Below are positions 1,043 to 24,704 of a stretch of DNA of 40,931 nt, piece by piece (the first letter of the stretch is position 1; every line of letters starts with the position of its first letter). The position numbers and the translations under genes are program-made. The notes below the pieces were generated by a model that made no database searches, was not told the origin of the DNA, and saw only the letters and a list, made by a program, of their open reading frames with translations. Origin of the DNA: Candidatus Tayloriibacteriota bacterium (GTDB lineage Bacteria; Patescibacteriota; Minisyncoccia; Phycocordibacterales; JACOZD01). The stretch is taken from the NCBI GenBank assembly GCA_016181525.1, contig JACOZD010000012.1, forward strand, positions 1 through 40,931. The letters run 5' to 3'.

Positions 1043-4000
1043 ATGGAAAAAAAGAAAAGCGAGGCGGCGCGCAGAGAGGAGGAAATCCTTAAATTCTGGG
1101 AGAAAAATAAAATATTTGAGAAGACACTAAAGAAAGAAGCTCCGAAGGGAGAGTTTGTTTTTTATGACGGCCCGCCCTTCGCCAACGGCGCGCCGCACTT
1201 CGGCAACTTTTTGGCAAGTATCATCAAGGATGTCATTCCGCGTTACAAAACCATGCGCGGCTACGGCGTTCCTCGGCGGTGGGGCTGGGACTGTCATGGC
1301 CTGCCGGTCGAGACCGAGGTGGAGAAGGAGCTTCGACTGCCGGACAAAAAGGCCATCGAGGAATTCGGAGTAGAGAGGTTCAATGAGGCGGCGGCGAAGA
1401 GTGTCATGCGTTACGCCGCCGTCTGGCGGGAGCAGATTCCGCGAGTCGGCCGGTGGGTTGACATGGAGAGAGATTACCGGACCATGGATACTCCCTACAC
1501 CGAGTCGGTCTGGTGGATTTTTAAAACGCTTTACGATAAGGGGCTGATATACGAGGGCTTCAAAGCCATGCACCTCTGCCCCCGCTGCGGCACCACTCTC
1601 TCTAACTTTGAGGTCGGCCAGCGTTATAAATCAATTAAGGATTTGTCGGCCTACGTCAAGTTCCCGCTCAAAGGCCAAAAAGACACCTACCTTCTGGCTT
1701 GGACGACCACTCCCTGGACCTTACCCGGCAACGCCGCCCTGGCCGTCAGACCCGATGCCAGATACATGAAGATTAAAGTCGGGCCTGAAAAGCTCATCCT
1801 GGCCAAAGACAGGGCAGGTATTCTTGAGACAGAGTACGAAATCGTCGAAGAATTTTGGGGTAGGGAACTTTTAGGCCTCGAGTACCATCCCCCGTTCGAT
1901 TACTTCGAGAAAGACAAAAAGGCGAAAAACAGAGAGAGAGCATGGAGGATTTACGGCGCCGACTTTGTCACCCTCAAAGAAGGCGCGGGTATAGTTCATA
2001 TCGCTCCGGCCTTCGGTGACGATGACCTTTCTCTGGCCGAGAAGGAGGATATTCCTCTCATTCACCATGTCACGCCTCAAGGCAATTTTGCCCAGAAAGT
2101 TTTGGATTTTGCCGGCTTGCCGGTTAAGCCCAAAAGTGACCCGCAGGCGGCCGATAAACTTATAGTTGAGCATCTTAAGAATAAAAATCTTATCTTTAAA
2201 GTCCAAGAAATTGTTCATGAATACCCCCACTGCTGGCGGTGCGAGACGCCGCTTTTGAATTTCGCCTCCTCGTCGTGGTTTGTTAAGGTTATCGCTCTGA
2301 AGAACAAACTCCTTTCGGAAAATAGAAAAATCAAATGGGTGCCGCCGGAGATTGGCGAGGGGCGTTTTGGAACGTGGCTTGAAGGCGCTCGGGACTGGGC
2401 CGTCTCCCGCTCACGCTACTTTGGGGCGCCTCTGCCGGTCTGGCGGTGTGATAAGTGTGAGCGGGTTCGAGTTGTTGGTTCTGTTGCGGAACTCAAAAAA
2501 GAGTCGCCGCCAAGCGCTGAAATATATATCATGCGCCATGGGGAGGCGGAGAATAATGTTCTGGGTATTTTGAACACCAATCTGGCCGAAAACAACCTTC
2601 ATCTGACGGCCAAAGGGAGGGAGCAGGTTCGCGCCTCGGCGGCGAAACTGCGGGGGAGATTTGACATCATTATCTCCTCGCCATTCCTGCGCGCTCGAGA
2701 GACGGCCGAGCTCGCCGCCGAGGCGCTCGGTTTCTCTAAGGATAAAATCATTATTGACGAGCGCATCCGTGAGTACAACGCCGGCGTTTTTGACGGCCGG
2801 AGGGTGGATGAGTATCACGCTTTCTATGCCAAGGACGAGGAATATTTCTCTAAGCGCCCGGAAGGAGGAGAAAATTACACCGATGTCAGAAAACGGGTAG
2901 GGGAGTTTCTCTACGAGGCGGCGGGCAAGTACATCGGCAAACAAATTCTGGTCGTCTCGCACGATGCGCCCTTGTGGCTCATGTGGGGAGTGTCGGGAGG
3001 GAAGAGTGTCGGGGAGTTACTTAAGGGCGAGCCGGTCAGCGCCTACTTTCTCGGTAACGGCGAGTGGCGGGAGCTTGACTTCGCTCCGCTGCCTTTGAAC
3101 AGCCACTTCGAGCTTGATTTCCATCGGCCCTACATTGACCGCATTACTCTCACCTGTCCCTGCGGAGCGCCGGGGCGGAGAGTGGAGGAGGTTTTTGACT
3201 GCTGGTTTGAGTCCGGCTCCATGCCTTACGCCTCGCATCATTACCCCTTCGGGGATAAAGCTCTTTTCAATCCGAGTTCGGGTTTTTTGAGAAAGTCCGT
3301 GGGTTTTCCGGCTGACTTTATCGCTGAAGGTCTCGACCAGACCCGCGGCTGGTTTTATTCGATGCTGGTTTTAGGCGCGGCTCTCTTTGGGAGGAGTCCC
3401 TACAAGAAAGTGCTAGTAAACGGCATCATTCTCGCCGAGGATGGGCAGAAGATGTCCAAACGGCTCAAAAACTATCCCGACCCGATGGCGGTGGTGGACC
3501 GCTTTGGGGCCGACGCCCTTCGCTTTTACCTTCTCTCATCCCCCGTGGTCCGAGGGGAGGAGCTAAAGTTTTCGGAGAAGGGATTAGGCGAGATACAAAA
3601 AAAGGTTTTGGGTCGTCTCCACAATGTTTTGGAGTTCTACGAGCTTTACGCTTTAAAAAGTTCTACGCCCTCCACCTTAAACCCCAAACCCTCTCATATT
3701 CTGGACCGCTGGATTTTGGCGAGACTTAGCGAACTCTCAAAAGAAGTTACGGACGGACTCGAGGCCTATGAGCTGGACCGCGCCGCGCGCCCCATCGCCG
3801 AGTTTGTGGATGACCTCTCCGCCTGGTACGTGCGCCGCTCGCGCGAGCGATTTAGAGGCGATGATAAAGAGGAGAAGAAATGCGCTTCGGCTACTCTTTT
3901 CTGTGTTCTTGGAGAATTCTCTAAACTGATTGCGCCTTCTATGCCTTTCTACGCCGAGTACATTTATCAAAGGGTAAAACCGAGTGATTCAAAAGAGAGT

Positions 4001-4591
4001 GTCCACCTCGAATCTTGGCCTTCCTTAAAAGACTACAAGCTGCCCTCGGCCGACGGGCCGTCGGCACGGGCTAGGCAAGCTGCCAGCCACAAGCTTTTAG
4101 AAAATATGAAAGAGGTGCGGAGAGTGGTCTCTCTGGCTCTGGAGGCGAGAGCTCGGGCTGGAATTAAGGTCCGCCAGCCCTTGCATATGCTTAAACTAAA
4201 GGCCGCGGCCGAAGGTTTTCTTGATAAACCTCTTCTTCGCCTCGTTGCCGATGAGGTTAATGTCAAAGTAATTCTCCCGGATGAGAGTATTTCGGGCGAA
4301 GTAGAACTCGACACGCGCCTGACCGAGGCCTTGAGAGAGGAAGGTGTGGTGCGGGATATCGTACGTCTCCTCCAGGACGCCAGAAAGAAAGCGGGGCTAA
4401 AGGTCGGGGAGAAAGCGTCCGTGTCTATCGCCGCGCCGGAGGAGATAAAAAGAATCGTTGAAAAGAATAAAGGCGAGCTAATCAAATCTGCGACTCTTAA
4501 AGAGTTGAGATATGATGCCATTCCTGATTCGGAGAAATTTCAGATTGACGGAAAGCCGGTCTCTTTGAGAGTAGAAAAGAGCGATAAATAA
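1043..4591 (+). CDS. ileS: Isoleucyl-tRNA synthetase with inserted histidine-phosphatase domain
   Basis: It charges tRNA-Ile with isoleucine in the cytoplasm and has 1182 residues. The class I core is clear: the HIGH-equivalent lies in PPFANGAPHFGN (44-55, reading HFGN), the CP1 editing domain follows, KMSKR is at 803-807, and an anticodon-binding C-terminal region follows that. A zinc knuckle is split: C469/C472 lie before, and C705/C707 after, an extra domain of ~200 residues (about 492-690). That insert reads as a histidine phosphatase (phosphoglycerate-mutase fold). It has MRHGEAENN (R498, H499), SSPFLRARETA, an acidic IREYNAGVF stretch and VVSHD (H640), so the catalytic set looks intact. 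In ordinary IleRS this loop is only about ten residues. The stop codon abuts the recO ATG. Confidence 0.95.
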   Translation: MEKKKSEAARREEEILKFWEKNKIFEKTLKKEAPKGEFVFYDGPPFANGAPHFGNFLASIIKDVIPRYKTMRGYGVPRRWGWDCHGLPVETEVEKELRLPDKKAIEEFGVERFNEAAAKSVMRYAAVWREQIPRVGRWVDMERDYRTMDTPYTESVWWIFKTLYDKGLIYEGFKAMHLCPRCGTTLSNFEVGQRYKSIKDLSAYVKFPLKGQKDTYLLAWTTTPWTLPGNAALAVRPDARYMKIKVGPEKLILAKDRAGILETEYEIVEEFWGRELLGLEYHPPFDYFEKDKKAKNRERAWRIYGADFVTLKEGAGIVHIAPAFGDDDLSLAEKEDIPLIHHVTPQGNFAQKVLDFAGLPVKPKSDPQAADKLIVEHLKNKNLIFKVQEIVHEYPHCWRCETPLLNFASSSWFVKVIALKNKLLSENRKIKWVPPEIGEGRFGTWLEGARDWAVSRSRYFGAPLPVWRCDKCERVRVVGSVAELKKESPPSAEIYIMRHGEAENNVLGILNTNLAENNLHLTAKGREQVRASAAKLRGRFDIIISSPFLRARETAELAAEALGFSKDKIIIDERIREYNAGVFDGRRVDEYHAFYAKDEEYFSKRPEGGENYTDVRKRVGEFLYEAAGKYIGKQILVVSHDAPLWLMWGVSGGKSVGELLKGEPVSAYFLGNGEWRELDFAPLPLNSHFELDFHRPYIDRITLTCPCGAPGRRVEEVFDCWFESGSMPYASHHYPFGDKALFNPSSGFLRKSVGFPADFIAEGLDQTRGWFYSMLVLGAALFGRSPYKKVLVNGIILAEDGQKMSKRLKNYPDPMAVVDRFGADALRFYLLSSPVVRGEELKFSEKGLGEIQKKVLGRLHNVLEFYELYALKSSTPSTLNPKPSHILDRWILARLSELSKEVTDGLEAYELDRAARPIAEFVDDLSAWYVRRSRERFRGDDKEEKKCASATLFCVLGEFSKLIAPSMPFYAEYIYQRVKPSDSKESVHLESWPSLKDYKLPSADGPSARARQAASHKLLENMKEVRRVVSLALEARARAGIKVRQPLHMLKLKAAAEGFLDKPLLRLVADEVNVKVILPDESISGEVELDTRLTEALREEGVVRDIVRLLQDARKKAGLKVGEKASVSIAAPEEIKRIVEKNKGELIKSATLKELRYDAIPDSEKFQIDGKPVSLRVEKSDK

Positions 4592-21047: not shown

Positions 21048-24000
21048 ATGAGTCATTTAAAAGAATCTAAAGCCACGAAGTTGGTGGCAGGGCTTGTGGG
21101 AGTAACCATGACCCTTTCGCTCTTTGTGGGTTTGGGAGCGTTGACGGCTTCGGCGCAGGGCATTTCGGCGACCGAACTCGTTAACCTTCTTATCAGTCTC
21201 GGCATTATCCCGCCGGACAAGGCAGACCTCGCTCGGCAAGCGGTCGGCGCGGGCGGTCCTCCCTCGGGCGGCTTCACCTTCACCCGTAACCTCTCACTTG
21301 GTTCGCGCGGCACGGACGTGATGCGGCTTCAGGAGGCGCTAAACAGAGACGCGGCCACACGAGTATCGGTCTCCGGCGCCGGTTCGCCCGGCAACGAGAC
21401 CACCTACTTCGGTCCCGCGACCAAACGGGCGGTCATCAAGTTCCAGATTAAGTACAGCATCTCTCCGGCGGTCGGTTTTGTCGGTTCGCTGACGAGGGGT
21501 CAACTTAATTTGCTTGCTGGCGGTCCGACTCCGCCCCCGCCCCCTCCTCCGCCAGGACCCACTCCGCCTCCGCCTTCACCAGGCACGGGAGTGACGATAA
21601 CCAAGAGTCCGGACCAGCCCACCGGGACGCAGGCGCCTGAAAACGCCGCCCGCGTGCCCTTCACTAAGTTCACGCTCACGGCCGGCACTGACGGCGACGT
21701 CGTTATTGACAGCGTGCGCGTTGAGCGCGGCGGCCTCGGCGCTGACGCGGCTTTCACAGGCGTAGTGCTTATTGACCAAGATAACAAGCAACTCGGCAAT
21801 TCCAAGACCTTGGACTCCAATCACCAGGCGAATGTCGGCGAGAAAGTCACCATTCCTCGCGGCACCACCAAAACCTTCACAGTGGCGGGCAATATGGCTG
21901 CGAATAATGATGCTCGCGATGGTCAGGATGTATCCTTCCGCGTTGTGAGCATTAACACCAGCGCCACGGTTTCCGGCTCTCTTCCGGTTGAAGGTATCAC
22001 TCGTCGAATCAACTCCACTCTCTCCCTCGGCAGTGTAACGATGGCTGTTGGTTCTCTCGACCCGGGCGCGGCCGCCACCAAGAACGTGGGGGAGACCGGT
22101 ATCAATTTCTCGGCCATCAAAATCACGGCCGGCACGGCAGAAAAGATTCGGCTCCATTCAATCCGCTGGAATCAAGCATCATCCGCCGGTTCCACTGATA
22201 TTGCTAACATTGTGACGGTTGTGGACGGCGCTACCTACCCGACCGCCGTCTCTTCCGACGGCAAGTTCTACACTTCTACTTTCGGTTCAGGCATCGTTAT
22301 AGACAAAGGTCTCTTCAAGGAGCTCACAGTGAAGGGTGATTTGACTGGCGGCTCTGGCCGCGCCGTGGCCTTCACCATTGACAAGAACACTGATATCTAC
22401 TTGACCGGCGAGGATTACAACTTCGGTATTGCCGCTCCGGACGACGATATAGCGAGCAGCGGACGGGACATATTCGATGATGATGACACTATTTACTTTG
22501 AGGCCTTCACCGTCACTATTGACACCGGCAGCATCACCTTCGAGAACAGCACGTCGGTGGCGGCTCAAAACATCGCCATCAACAAGACCGACCAGCCGCT
22601 CGGCGCCTTCAATATTGACGTCAAGGGCGAGCGAATCAACGTGGCCAGTCAGGTCTTTACCCTCTCGACATCCGGCACCAACGGTTCAAGCGGCTCCAGC
22701 CAGCGGATTGTCAGCGTCACCTTGGTTGACCCCAACGGGAAAGTTGTGGCCGGACCGGTTGACGCCACAGACGCCTCTTCAGGCACGGTCACCTTTACGG
22801 ACACGGTTGCCTACCCGGTTGGCAAAAGCACCTATAAGCTCCAAGGAAAGTTGAGTTCCGGAGTTTTGAACGACCACACTGTCCGGTTTCAGTTCACTCC
22901 ATCAACAGCTATTACCAGCATCACCGGTGAGACCACCAACAAGGCCATTACCGCTTCTCCGAGCTCTCAAGTCTCTCTGAACATTATGACGGCCAAGTCG
23001 GCGGCTCTCTCCATCAGCGCCCTGCCCGAGCCCGCTTCGCAGACGGTGGTGGCCGGCGCCAGTGGTTTGCTGGTGGGCAGGATTCTTCTCGACGCCTCGG
23101 CCTCGGGTGAGGACCTCAAAATGAACGCCATTCCTCTCGACACGTCTGTGAACTCGAGCACCTCAAACATCACCAAGTGTGTTCTCTACGATGGGAGCAC
23201 CGCTCTCCAGACGGGGTCGAACCAGATGACCTCATTCTCAAACTCTTCGACTTCAAACTTCACCTTCGATAATCAGCTCGTTATCCCCAAGGGTTCATCT
23301 AAGACCCTCGACCTTAAGTGCAGTTTCAACACCTCGGCCAGCGGCACCTACCGTTTCGGCTACTCCGACACCGCCTCGCCGACTGTAACCGGAGTAACTT
23401 CTGGTCAATCCGCCACTCTGACAGAGTTGACCTCCGCTTCCGGACTGTTCACCTTCACCACCTCGGGCACGCTTGCCGTGGCGCTTGATGCCTCCAGTCC
23501 TTCATACGCTCTGGCCAACGCCGGCGGAACGCAAACTGTCTCCGCTCTGCGGATTACCGGCAAGAACGAGCAAATCCGCATTAATGAGGTTGGTTTGCAG
23601 TTGTTCTCCGGCTCTAGCCCTTCCGCTTCAACTACGGCTGCAGATTTGGTAAAAATCACGTTGTGGGATGGGACCAATAAAGTTGGTGAGAAAGTGTTCT
23701 CGCCCGGCAGTTTCTGGGCTTCCACCACCCTTGGCACTTGCACCGGTTGTTCTGAATTGATTGTTCCCAGAAACGACGATAAAGTTCTGACCATTAAGGC
23801 CGAACTGGCCGCTCAAGGAGATGGACTGATTGGTACCCCGGGAGCAGTCGTCGCAGTTGATTGGGACGGTGACGGCTCACAGGGAACGGGAAGCTCGGCG
23901 GCCTCCTCCGGCGGTATTGCCGGCACTGGACTCTCGAGCGGCACGAAGATTACAGCTTATGGCACCGACAGCGCGTCTTCCGGCGTGAGAGTGGTGAAGT

Positions 24001-24704
24001 CGGTACCTTCGTTTGAGAAGATAGACTTCACCGATACTAAACTGGTGGCCGGACGCCGTGACCTCTTCAAGTTCAAGGTTACCGCTTCGGCGAATGGCCA
24101 GGTGGGCATCAATAAATTAACCTTCAGAATCGCGACATCGTCGGCGACATCGCAGATAAACATGATTGACGCTCTTAACGTCTATGCCTACACCAGTTCA
24201 TCGTATAGTTCAGGGTCAGAGGTAACAGGCATCCAGACTGATGGTGCATTCCTCCAGACATCGAAGGATCTCTCTTCAAACGATAATGGTACTCCTAATC
24301 TTTGGGCTAGCGCCTCAACCGACTTAAGCTTCCATCCGCATGATTCGGCCAATGCTTCTACCACAGTGTCAATTCCGGCCGGTCAGACCTATTACTTCGT
24401 GCTTCGCGGTGATGTAACGCTCGCCGGCACGACCTATAACGTCTCAACCCAGCTTCAGGGAGACAACCGCTTCTACACGCCGGCAACCCGTCCATATTGG
24501 GTCAGCGGCGGCGGCGCAACGACCACACTGCTTGCCACATCCACTTACTTCGACAACTCGGCTGATGCGACTCTCGATGACTTCATCTGGAGACCGCATT
24601 CAACCACGAGTAACAGAAGCAACACCGCCAACGATTACTTGAACGGTTATGGAGTGCCGGGCCTTGGAGCAGTTAACACCAATGCTCAAATCCTCTCCAA
24701 CTAA
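21048..24704 (+). CDS. Large secreted S-layer-like surface protein with peptidoglycan-binding domain
   Basis: The 1218 residues have a signal peptide at ~1-37 (LVAGLVGVTMTLSLFVGLGA, cleavage near ASAQG). A peptidoglycan-binding type 1 domain follows at ~80-155, with LSLGSRGTDVMRLQEALNRD and YFGPATKRAVIKFQIKYSI. A polyproline linker (~163-185) leads into about 1000 residues of Ser/Thr/Gly/Ala-rich beta repeats with almost no Cys. Composition, size and anchoring match abundant S-layer-like proteins of Parcubacteria. It has its own strong promoter, a long leader and a strong terminator, consistent with very high expression. The array-forming role is inferred. Confidence 0.85.
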   Translation: MSHLKESKATKLVAGLVGVTMTLSLFVGLGALTASAQGISATELVNLLISLGIIPPDKADLARQAVGAGGPPSGGFTFTRNLSLGSRGTDVMRLQEALNRDAATRVSVSGAGSPGNETTYFGPATKRAVIKFQIKYSISPAVGFVGSLTRGQLNLLAGGPTPPPPPPPPGPTPPPPSPGTGVTITKSPDQPTGTQAPENAARVPFTKFTLTAGTDGDVVIDSVRVERGGLGADAAFTGVVLIDQDNKQLGNSKTLDSNHQANVGEKVTIPRGTTKTFTVAGNMAANNDARDGQDVSFRVVSINTSATVSGSLPVEGITRRINSTLSLGSVTMAVGSLDPGAAATKNVGETGINFSAIKITAGTAEKIRLHSIRWNQASSAGSTDIANIVTVVDGATYPTAVSSDGKFYTSTFGSGIVIDKGLFKELTVKGDLTGGSGRAVAFTIDKNTDIYLTGEDYNFGIAAPDDDIASSGRDIFDDDDTIYFEAFTVTIDTGSITFENSTSVAAQNIAINKTDQPLGAFNIDVKGERINVASQVFTLSTSGTNGSSGSSQRIVSVTLVDPNGKVVAGPVDATDASSGTVTFTDTVAYPVGKSTYKLQGKLSSGVLNDHTVRFQFTPSTAITSITGETTNKAITASPSSQVSLNIMTAKSAALSISALPEPASQTVVAGASGLLVGRILLDASASGEDLKMNAIPLDTSVNSSTSNITKCVLYDGSTALQTGSNQMTSFSNSSTSNFTFDNQLVIPKGSSKTLDLKCSFNTSASGTYRFGYSDTASPTVTGVTSGQSATLTELTSASGLFTFTTSGTLAVALDASSPSYALANAGGTQTVSALRITGKNEQIRINEVGLQLFSGSSPSASTTAADLVKITLWDGTNKVGEKVFSPGSFWASTTLGTCTGCSELIVPRNDDKVLTIKAELAAQGDGLIGTPGAVVAVDWDGDGSQGTGSSAASSGGIAGTGLSSGTKITAYGTDSASSGVRVVKSVPSFEKIDFTDTKLVAGRRDLFKFKVTASANGQVGINKLTFRIATSSATSQINMIDALNVYAYTSSSYSSGSEVTGIQTDGAFLQTSKDLSSNDNGTPNLWASASTDLSFHPHDSANASTTVSIPAGQTYYFVLRGDVTLAGTTYNVSTQLQGDNRFYTPATRPYWVSGGGATTTLLATSTYFDNSADATLDDFIWRPHSTTSNRSNTANDYLNGYGVPGLGAVNTNAQILSN

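Follow-up and report, generated by a model that had tools for sequence, protein, structure and literature searches.

Why should an isoleucyl-tRNA synthetase (IleRS) carry a second enzyme within its own polypeptide? The window analyzed here, a stretch of 40,931 nucleotides, raises this question with its ileS gene (1043-4591, forward strand), a single open frame of 1182 amino acids that encodes a complete IleRS and, inside it, a histidine phosphatase (HP) domain. The host genome comprises 491,707 bases (0.49 Mb) and is 82% complete; its relatives are named Patescibacteria (candidate phyla radiation). The relevant features of the gene are the following:

1043..4591, forward strand: ileS, isoleucyl-tRNA synthetase with inserted histidine phosphatase, 1182 amino acids (profiles, AlphaFold2, Foldseek)
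1196..1207, forward strand: HIGH-type signature, reading HFGN, residues 52-55 (sequence)
1625..2242, forward strand: CP1 editing domain, residues ~195-400, motifs WTTTPWTLPGN and GTGIVHIAP...D intact (alignment)
2447..2458, forward strand: C469-x-x-C472, first half of the zinc knuckle (sequence)
2507..3112, forward strand: HP insert at site A, residues ~489-690 (match of HP-free relatives split at ~488-493 / 679-692)
2522..2989, forward strand: PF00300 (His_Phos_1) match, residues 494-648 (Pfam, whole-genome search)
2534..2542, forward strand: R498-H499-G500, phosphate-binding Arg and nucleophile His (RH in 59/59 aligned relatives)
2678..2692, forward strand: S546...R550, second phosphate-binding Arg motif (59/59 relatives)
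2771..2773, forward strand: E577, general acid position (E or D in 59/59 relatives)
2960..2962, forward strand: H640, second catalytic His (59/59 relatives)
3155..3163, forward strand: C705-x-C707, second half of the zinc knuckle (sequence)
3449..3463, forward strand: KMSKR signature, residues 803-807 (sequence; K803, M804, and K806 invariant)

The NCBIfam profile TIGR00392 (ileS) matched the window protein above its cut-off (871 bits vs. 621.4), and Pfam identified tRNA-synt_1, Anticodon_1, and DUF5915 in addition to the inserted PF00300. The class I signatures (HFGN, KMSKR) and the CP1 editing residues are all present, and W220, T221, T222, N230, H319, and D328 are invariant among the aligned relatives. 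A role of the HP in editing, one of the possibilities raised by the sequence-only reading of this DNA, is not supported, as the CP1 editing residues are intact alongside it. Judged by these motifs and matches, the window protein is a functional-looking IleRS with a complete branch-1 HP module. Residue 55 is a nearly invariant His in the HIGH motif of the relatives, and the window IleRS reads HFGN. The zinc Cys pairs are missing in part of the HP-bearing and also in part of the HP-free relatives. Elsewhere in the window, a 1218-amino-acid open reading frame (21048-24704) gave zero Pfam matches at E 1e-5; a frame of 179 amino acids upstream of ileS (446-985) is likewise without a Pfam match and may not be a gene.

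The inserted domain was recognized by PF00300 with 114.2 bits (E 8.2e-33, cut-off 21.7 bits), and a profile search of the whole 0.49-Mb genome revealed it as the single HP encoded there. Alignments of the inserts alone were too diverse for a pattern scan, so the full-length alignment was used; E610 and R618 were likewise invariant among the 59 aligned insert-bearing IleRS. The two zinc half-sites flank the insert, and together with the Pfam and TIGR00392 matches they bear out the original observation of an HP placed between C469/C472 and C705/C707 of a real IleRS. The catalytic set (R498-H499-G, S546/R550, E577, and H640) is intact, as had been claimed. The same reading took the interrupted loop to be about ten residues long. 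This holds insofar as the loop itself is short, the insertion point lying between residues 478 and 485 of Priestia megaterium IleRS2, but the two Cys pairs are normally some 30-35 residues apart, because the piece between the PxPxW and DxWFDSG anchors has a median length of only 55 residues in HP-free IleRS (range 47-65). In one-HP IleRS this distance amounts to 226-287 residues (median 251). Neither a transposition scar nor foreign composition was found near the insert when repeats and G+C were checked. An assembly join or chimera at the insert was ruled out by identical junctions in many independent relatives.

Structure prediction gave a confident model of synthetase and HP together. The full-length AlphaFold2 model, based on 28 sequences, reached a mean pLDDT of 89.1 and a pTM of 0.83, with the HP blocks mostly at 85-95; the isolated HP domain folded from a single sequence reached a pLDDT of 48.7. 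In a Foldseek search with the full model, the best match was IleRS2 (8c8v), the TMt to the Thermus enzyme (1ile) was 0.93, and the matches listed were all synthetases. As IleRS2 structures and Thermus IleRS were returned, the synthetase fold is preserved around the insert. Among solved structures, the HP profile was closest to true phosphatases, namely PSP1 (4ij5) and PhoE (1ebb/1h2e). The scores were below the cut-offs for dPGM (84.3 bits vs. 225, dPGM_arch) and below the equivalog cut-offs for PspA (58.3 vs. 350), alpha-ribazole phosphatase (64.7 vs. 162.9), and SixA (35.2 vs. 74.5). Because the domain is nearest to PSP1 and PhoE yet falls below these NCBIfam cut-offs, its substrate is not nameable from sequence; a by-product, a signaling nucleotide, or a toxic analogue had been suggested, and no named substrate is supported.

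To what extent the insertion is shared by relatives was explored in several samples. In the order sample (60 genomes, each from a separate family), IleRS was scoreable in 58 genomes, 54 of which carry the site-A HP insert. The matches of the four HP-free genomes (G021, G028, G053, and G054) split close to residues 489 and 690. By our reading of the match table, the insert is present in 95 of the 131 scoreable genomes of the class and missing in 36. It also occurs, as a minority, in other lineages of the phylum, whereas among 80 IleRS loci from all prokaryotes HP inserts were found only in loci named as candidate-phylum or unplaced bacteria and in L102, labelled as a Spirochaetia MAG. HP-containing IleRS are spread widely through a phylum that ranks among the largest of the bacteria, and the window gene is therefore not a one-genome curiosity. 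The question of spread that the sequence-only reading had posed is thereby answered with wide occurrence in the phylum; the findings described below, four insertion sites and as many as three HPs in IleRS, and HPs in ValRS, go beyond it.

The main survey yielded 109 complete IleRS HP domains, and all of them retained the six catalytic positions. Relatives with a degenerate catalytic set were therefore absent there, but a survey of another class of the phylum, that of G432, yielded one degenerate HP (L311, site D; the catalytic Arg and the second His lost) and two further domains with a substituted Ser. On average, the majority residue of a position had a frequency of 0.53 in the insert, compared with about 0.70-0.76 for the catalytic and the editing regions. 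For the four closest pairs, dN/dS of the HP was 0.05-0.15, which is about the value for the rest of the gene in three pairs and lower than the rest in the mosaic pair L006/L049. Purifying selection acts on the HP module, and the module is conserved in a large part of the phylum. Considering its residues, the inserted HP is very probably an active phosphatase, presumably a phosphomonoesterase, in which phosphoryl transfer would occur to H499, helped by R498, R550, and H640, with E577 as the acid. A non-catalytic module with a structural or tRNA-binding role would fit the degenerate copy in L311 and the position of the insert in the zinc subdomain; the near-universal retention of the catalytic set makes it very unlikely.

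The site survey centered on G432, whose class has in-frame TGA in several genomes. Four HP sites were distinguished (window numbering): A at ~490, B at ~708 at the tip of the second zinc hairpin, C at ~737-743, and D at ~877 in the linker to the anticodon domain. IleRS of that class contain one to three HPs per protein. An IleRS of 1569 amino acids (L296:376-5085, G490) carries three Pfam-confirmed HPs at sites B, C, and D, and two HPs per IleRS were found in four Peregrinibacteria-like proteins (L109, L111, L265, and L266). All sites surround the synthetic core, in the part of the protein that follows the CP1 editing domain and precedes the anticodon domain; the CP1, anticodon, and C-terminal domains themselves hold no HP. 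Two IleRS of this survey contain other domains: L300:1602-6020 (reverse strand, G496; 1472 amino acids) has a GNAT acetyltransferase and ~250 further, unassigned residues after DxWFESG, in the site C region, and L306:332-4258 (G480) has a Y1_Tnp (IS200-like transposase) domain within its CP1 editing domain, all of it encoded by a single open frame. A separate HP fusion was seen in L069:1728-3182 (G086), where a phosphoglycerate-mutase-type HP is joined to a pyruvate-kinase-like C-terminal part and adjoins enolase.

ValRS was sampled in 197 genomes of the order, 140 of which gave a match at the threshold applied. An HP in the corresponding position was clear in G011, G034, and G259 and more distant in G308. 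Most other ValRS of this sample match only as far as the insertion point. The NCBIfam ValRS profile confirmed all three proteins compared with it, those of G034 (858 bits), G011 (903 bits), and G308 (777 bits), against a cut-off of 704. IleRS and ValRS were the only aminoacyl-tRNA synthetase types seen with an HP.

These observations bear on the question whether the phosphatase serves the synthetase at all. It could be a hitch-hiking metabolic phosphatase with an ordinary small-molecule activity (PhoE, phosphoserine, or sugar-phosphate type), for which IleRS is an essential and steadily expressed carrier. The nearest solved structures are indeed general or phosphoserine phosphatases, and 41 of 118 order genomes, including that of the window, had exactly one HP match, in most cases that of the fused domain. 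However, the insert-less genomes G028 and G054 encode no HP anywhere, so that no free HP compensates for the absence; this complete lack of HPs makes a compensated metabolic enzyme an unlikely reading. A link with these synthetases is further indicated by IleRS that combine two or three HPs of different lineages and by the occurrence of HPs in ValRS, all other synthetase types seen being free of them. We consider this explanation rather unlikely, though it remains a serious rival.

To trace the history of the insert, the HP was removed from the sequences and a tree was built from 201 IleRS bodies. HP presence switches ~20 times on this tree, at least 19 times on well-supported branches, a count in which gain and loss are not distinguished. 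Close pairs such as L012/L065, L210/L247, and L091/L067 differ in HP presence. Within one genus, L006 and L049 have bodies with ~50% identity, HPs with 83-98%, and C-termini with ~90%, so that the body was replaced around a retained HP. For L104/L080, identity is mostly 65-85% between the bodies and about 20-47% between the HPs; these two patterns indicate that HPs were swapped between IleRS genes. In HP trees, whose internal support is weak, the copies of sites A, C, and most of D form one clade, while those of site B, some of D, and ValRS group with free HPs, which makes several separate acquisitions likely. Recurrent gain, loss, and exchange of HP in IleRS are evident.

Such turnover, with at least 19 state changes and swapped HPs, could also mean that a few IleRS loops accept additional domains and that recombination spreads HPs without much gain for the synthetase. 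Because the GNAT (L300) and Y1_Tnp (L306) domains likewise reside inside IleRS of the G432 class, insertion tolerance contributes and tolerated mobility has to be taken as a serious rival. On the other hand, the catalytic decay expected in this case is absent, the residues being kept in all complete domains of the main survey and nearly all others, dN/dS is well below 1, and every long site-A insert among 172 IleRS measured was an HP. Tolerated insertion as the whole explanation thus appears improbable.

Pyrophosphate arises at the core near the insert, and the family I soluble pyrophosphatase is present in only 20% of the class genomes, which might suggest that the HP clears the PPi of aminoacylation. 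HPs of this type are phosphomonoesterases, though, and the genome of the window encodes an H+-PPase. Moreover, any PPase was found in 81/95 HP-bearing vs. 31/36 HP-free class genomes (Fisher p = 1.0, phylogeny ignored), and we judge a pyrophosphatase role highly improbable. The H+-PPase occurs in about half of the class genomes and the family I enzyme in about one fifth. Replacement of a missing PPase by the HP was dropped, as no association was seen in the class sample. Nor was an association with RelA/SpoT found (78/95 vs. 27/36, Fisher p = 0.46, phylogeny ignored). HipA-type kinases phosphorylate class I synthetases at the KMSKS loop, and a protein phosphatase undoing this modification is conceivable; with zero HipA_C matches in 142 class genomes and positive controls, it is scarcely credible.

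Our tentative preference, held with less than even confidence, is an active accessory phosphatase that works in cis at the synthetic core of IleRS, because every HP site surrounds this core. The intact catalytic residues and low dN/dS, repeated association at diverse sites, the several HP lineages, the retention of the HP in L006/L049, the profile similarity to true phosphatases, and the confident model are in line with it. In this role, the HP would dephosphorylate a molecule that the core binds or produces; preferred candidates are a phosphorylated tRNA-Ile acceptor end or a nucleotide (AMP or an inhibitory adenylate-like compound). Some relatives lack the HP, and its function would thus be conditional rather than essential; closely related IleRS without it, and two HP-free genomes without any HP, indicate that it is dispensable. 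The more specific proposal that Patescibacteria IleRS, and a few ValRS, are bifunctional synthetase-phosphatases that act in cis to repair or clear a phosphorylated acceptor end of the tRNA or an adenylate-like nucleotide is rather unlikely as it stands. If active in cis, the HP would add a phosphate-removing reaction to aminoacylation, and if the bifunctional reading is true, this would be a quality-control or self-protection step not known in any aminoacyl-tRNA synthetase. The existence of close relatives with and without HP makes this directly accessible to experiments on purified enzymes.

Additional domains on aminoacyl-tRNA synthetases are well known. A description of an HP domain in any of them was not found in openly searchable papers (subscription papers and InterPro architectures lay outside the search), and the papers searched do not mention a catalytically intact phosphatase within the synthetic core, present once to three times per protein and at four positions. 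The architecture is also missing from the family libraries, in agreement with its initial description as non-standard.

With type 2 IleRS (Priestia megaterium, 8c8v; Thermus, 1ile), the window protein shares the synthetase fold, the CP1 motifs, the zinc subdomain, and the C-terminal domain, but these enzymes have a loop of about six residues and no inserted enzyme at the position of the HP. With the branch-1 HPs (PSP1, 4ij5; PhoE, 1ebb/1h2e; CobC), it has the catalytic motifs in common and a profile match over ~170 residues; those are free enzymes, whereas the HP of the window is an internal synthetase domain. The IleRS with N-acetyltransferase domain (NF040702, ileS_w_GNAT) likewise combine IleRS with an additional enzyme domain, but a GNAT instead of an HP; the window IleRS scored 293 bits against the required 1999, and no GNAT was detected by Pfam scan. 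Mycobacterial MutT1, a Nudix enzyme with a C-terminal RHG histidine phosphatase (PMC11784022), also joins an HP to another nucleotide-acting enzyme. There the fusion is terminal and involves no aminoacyl-tRNA synthetase, whereas in the window the HP is an internal insert in one.
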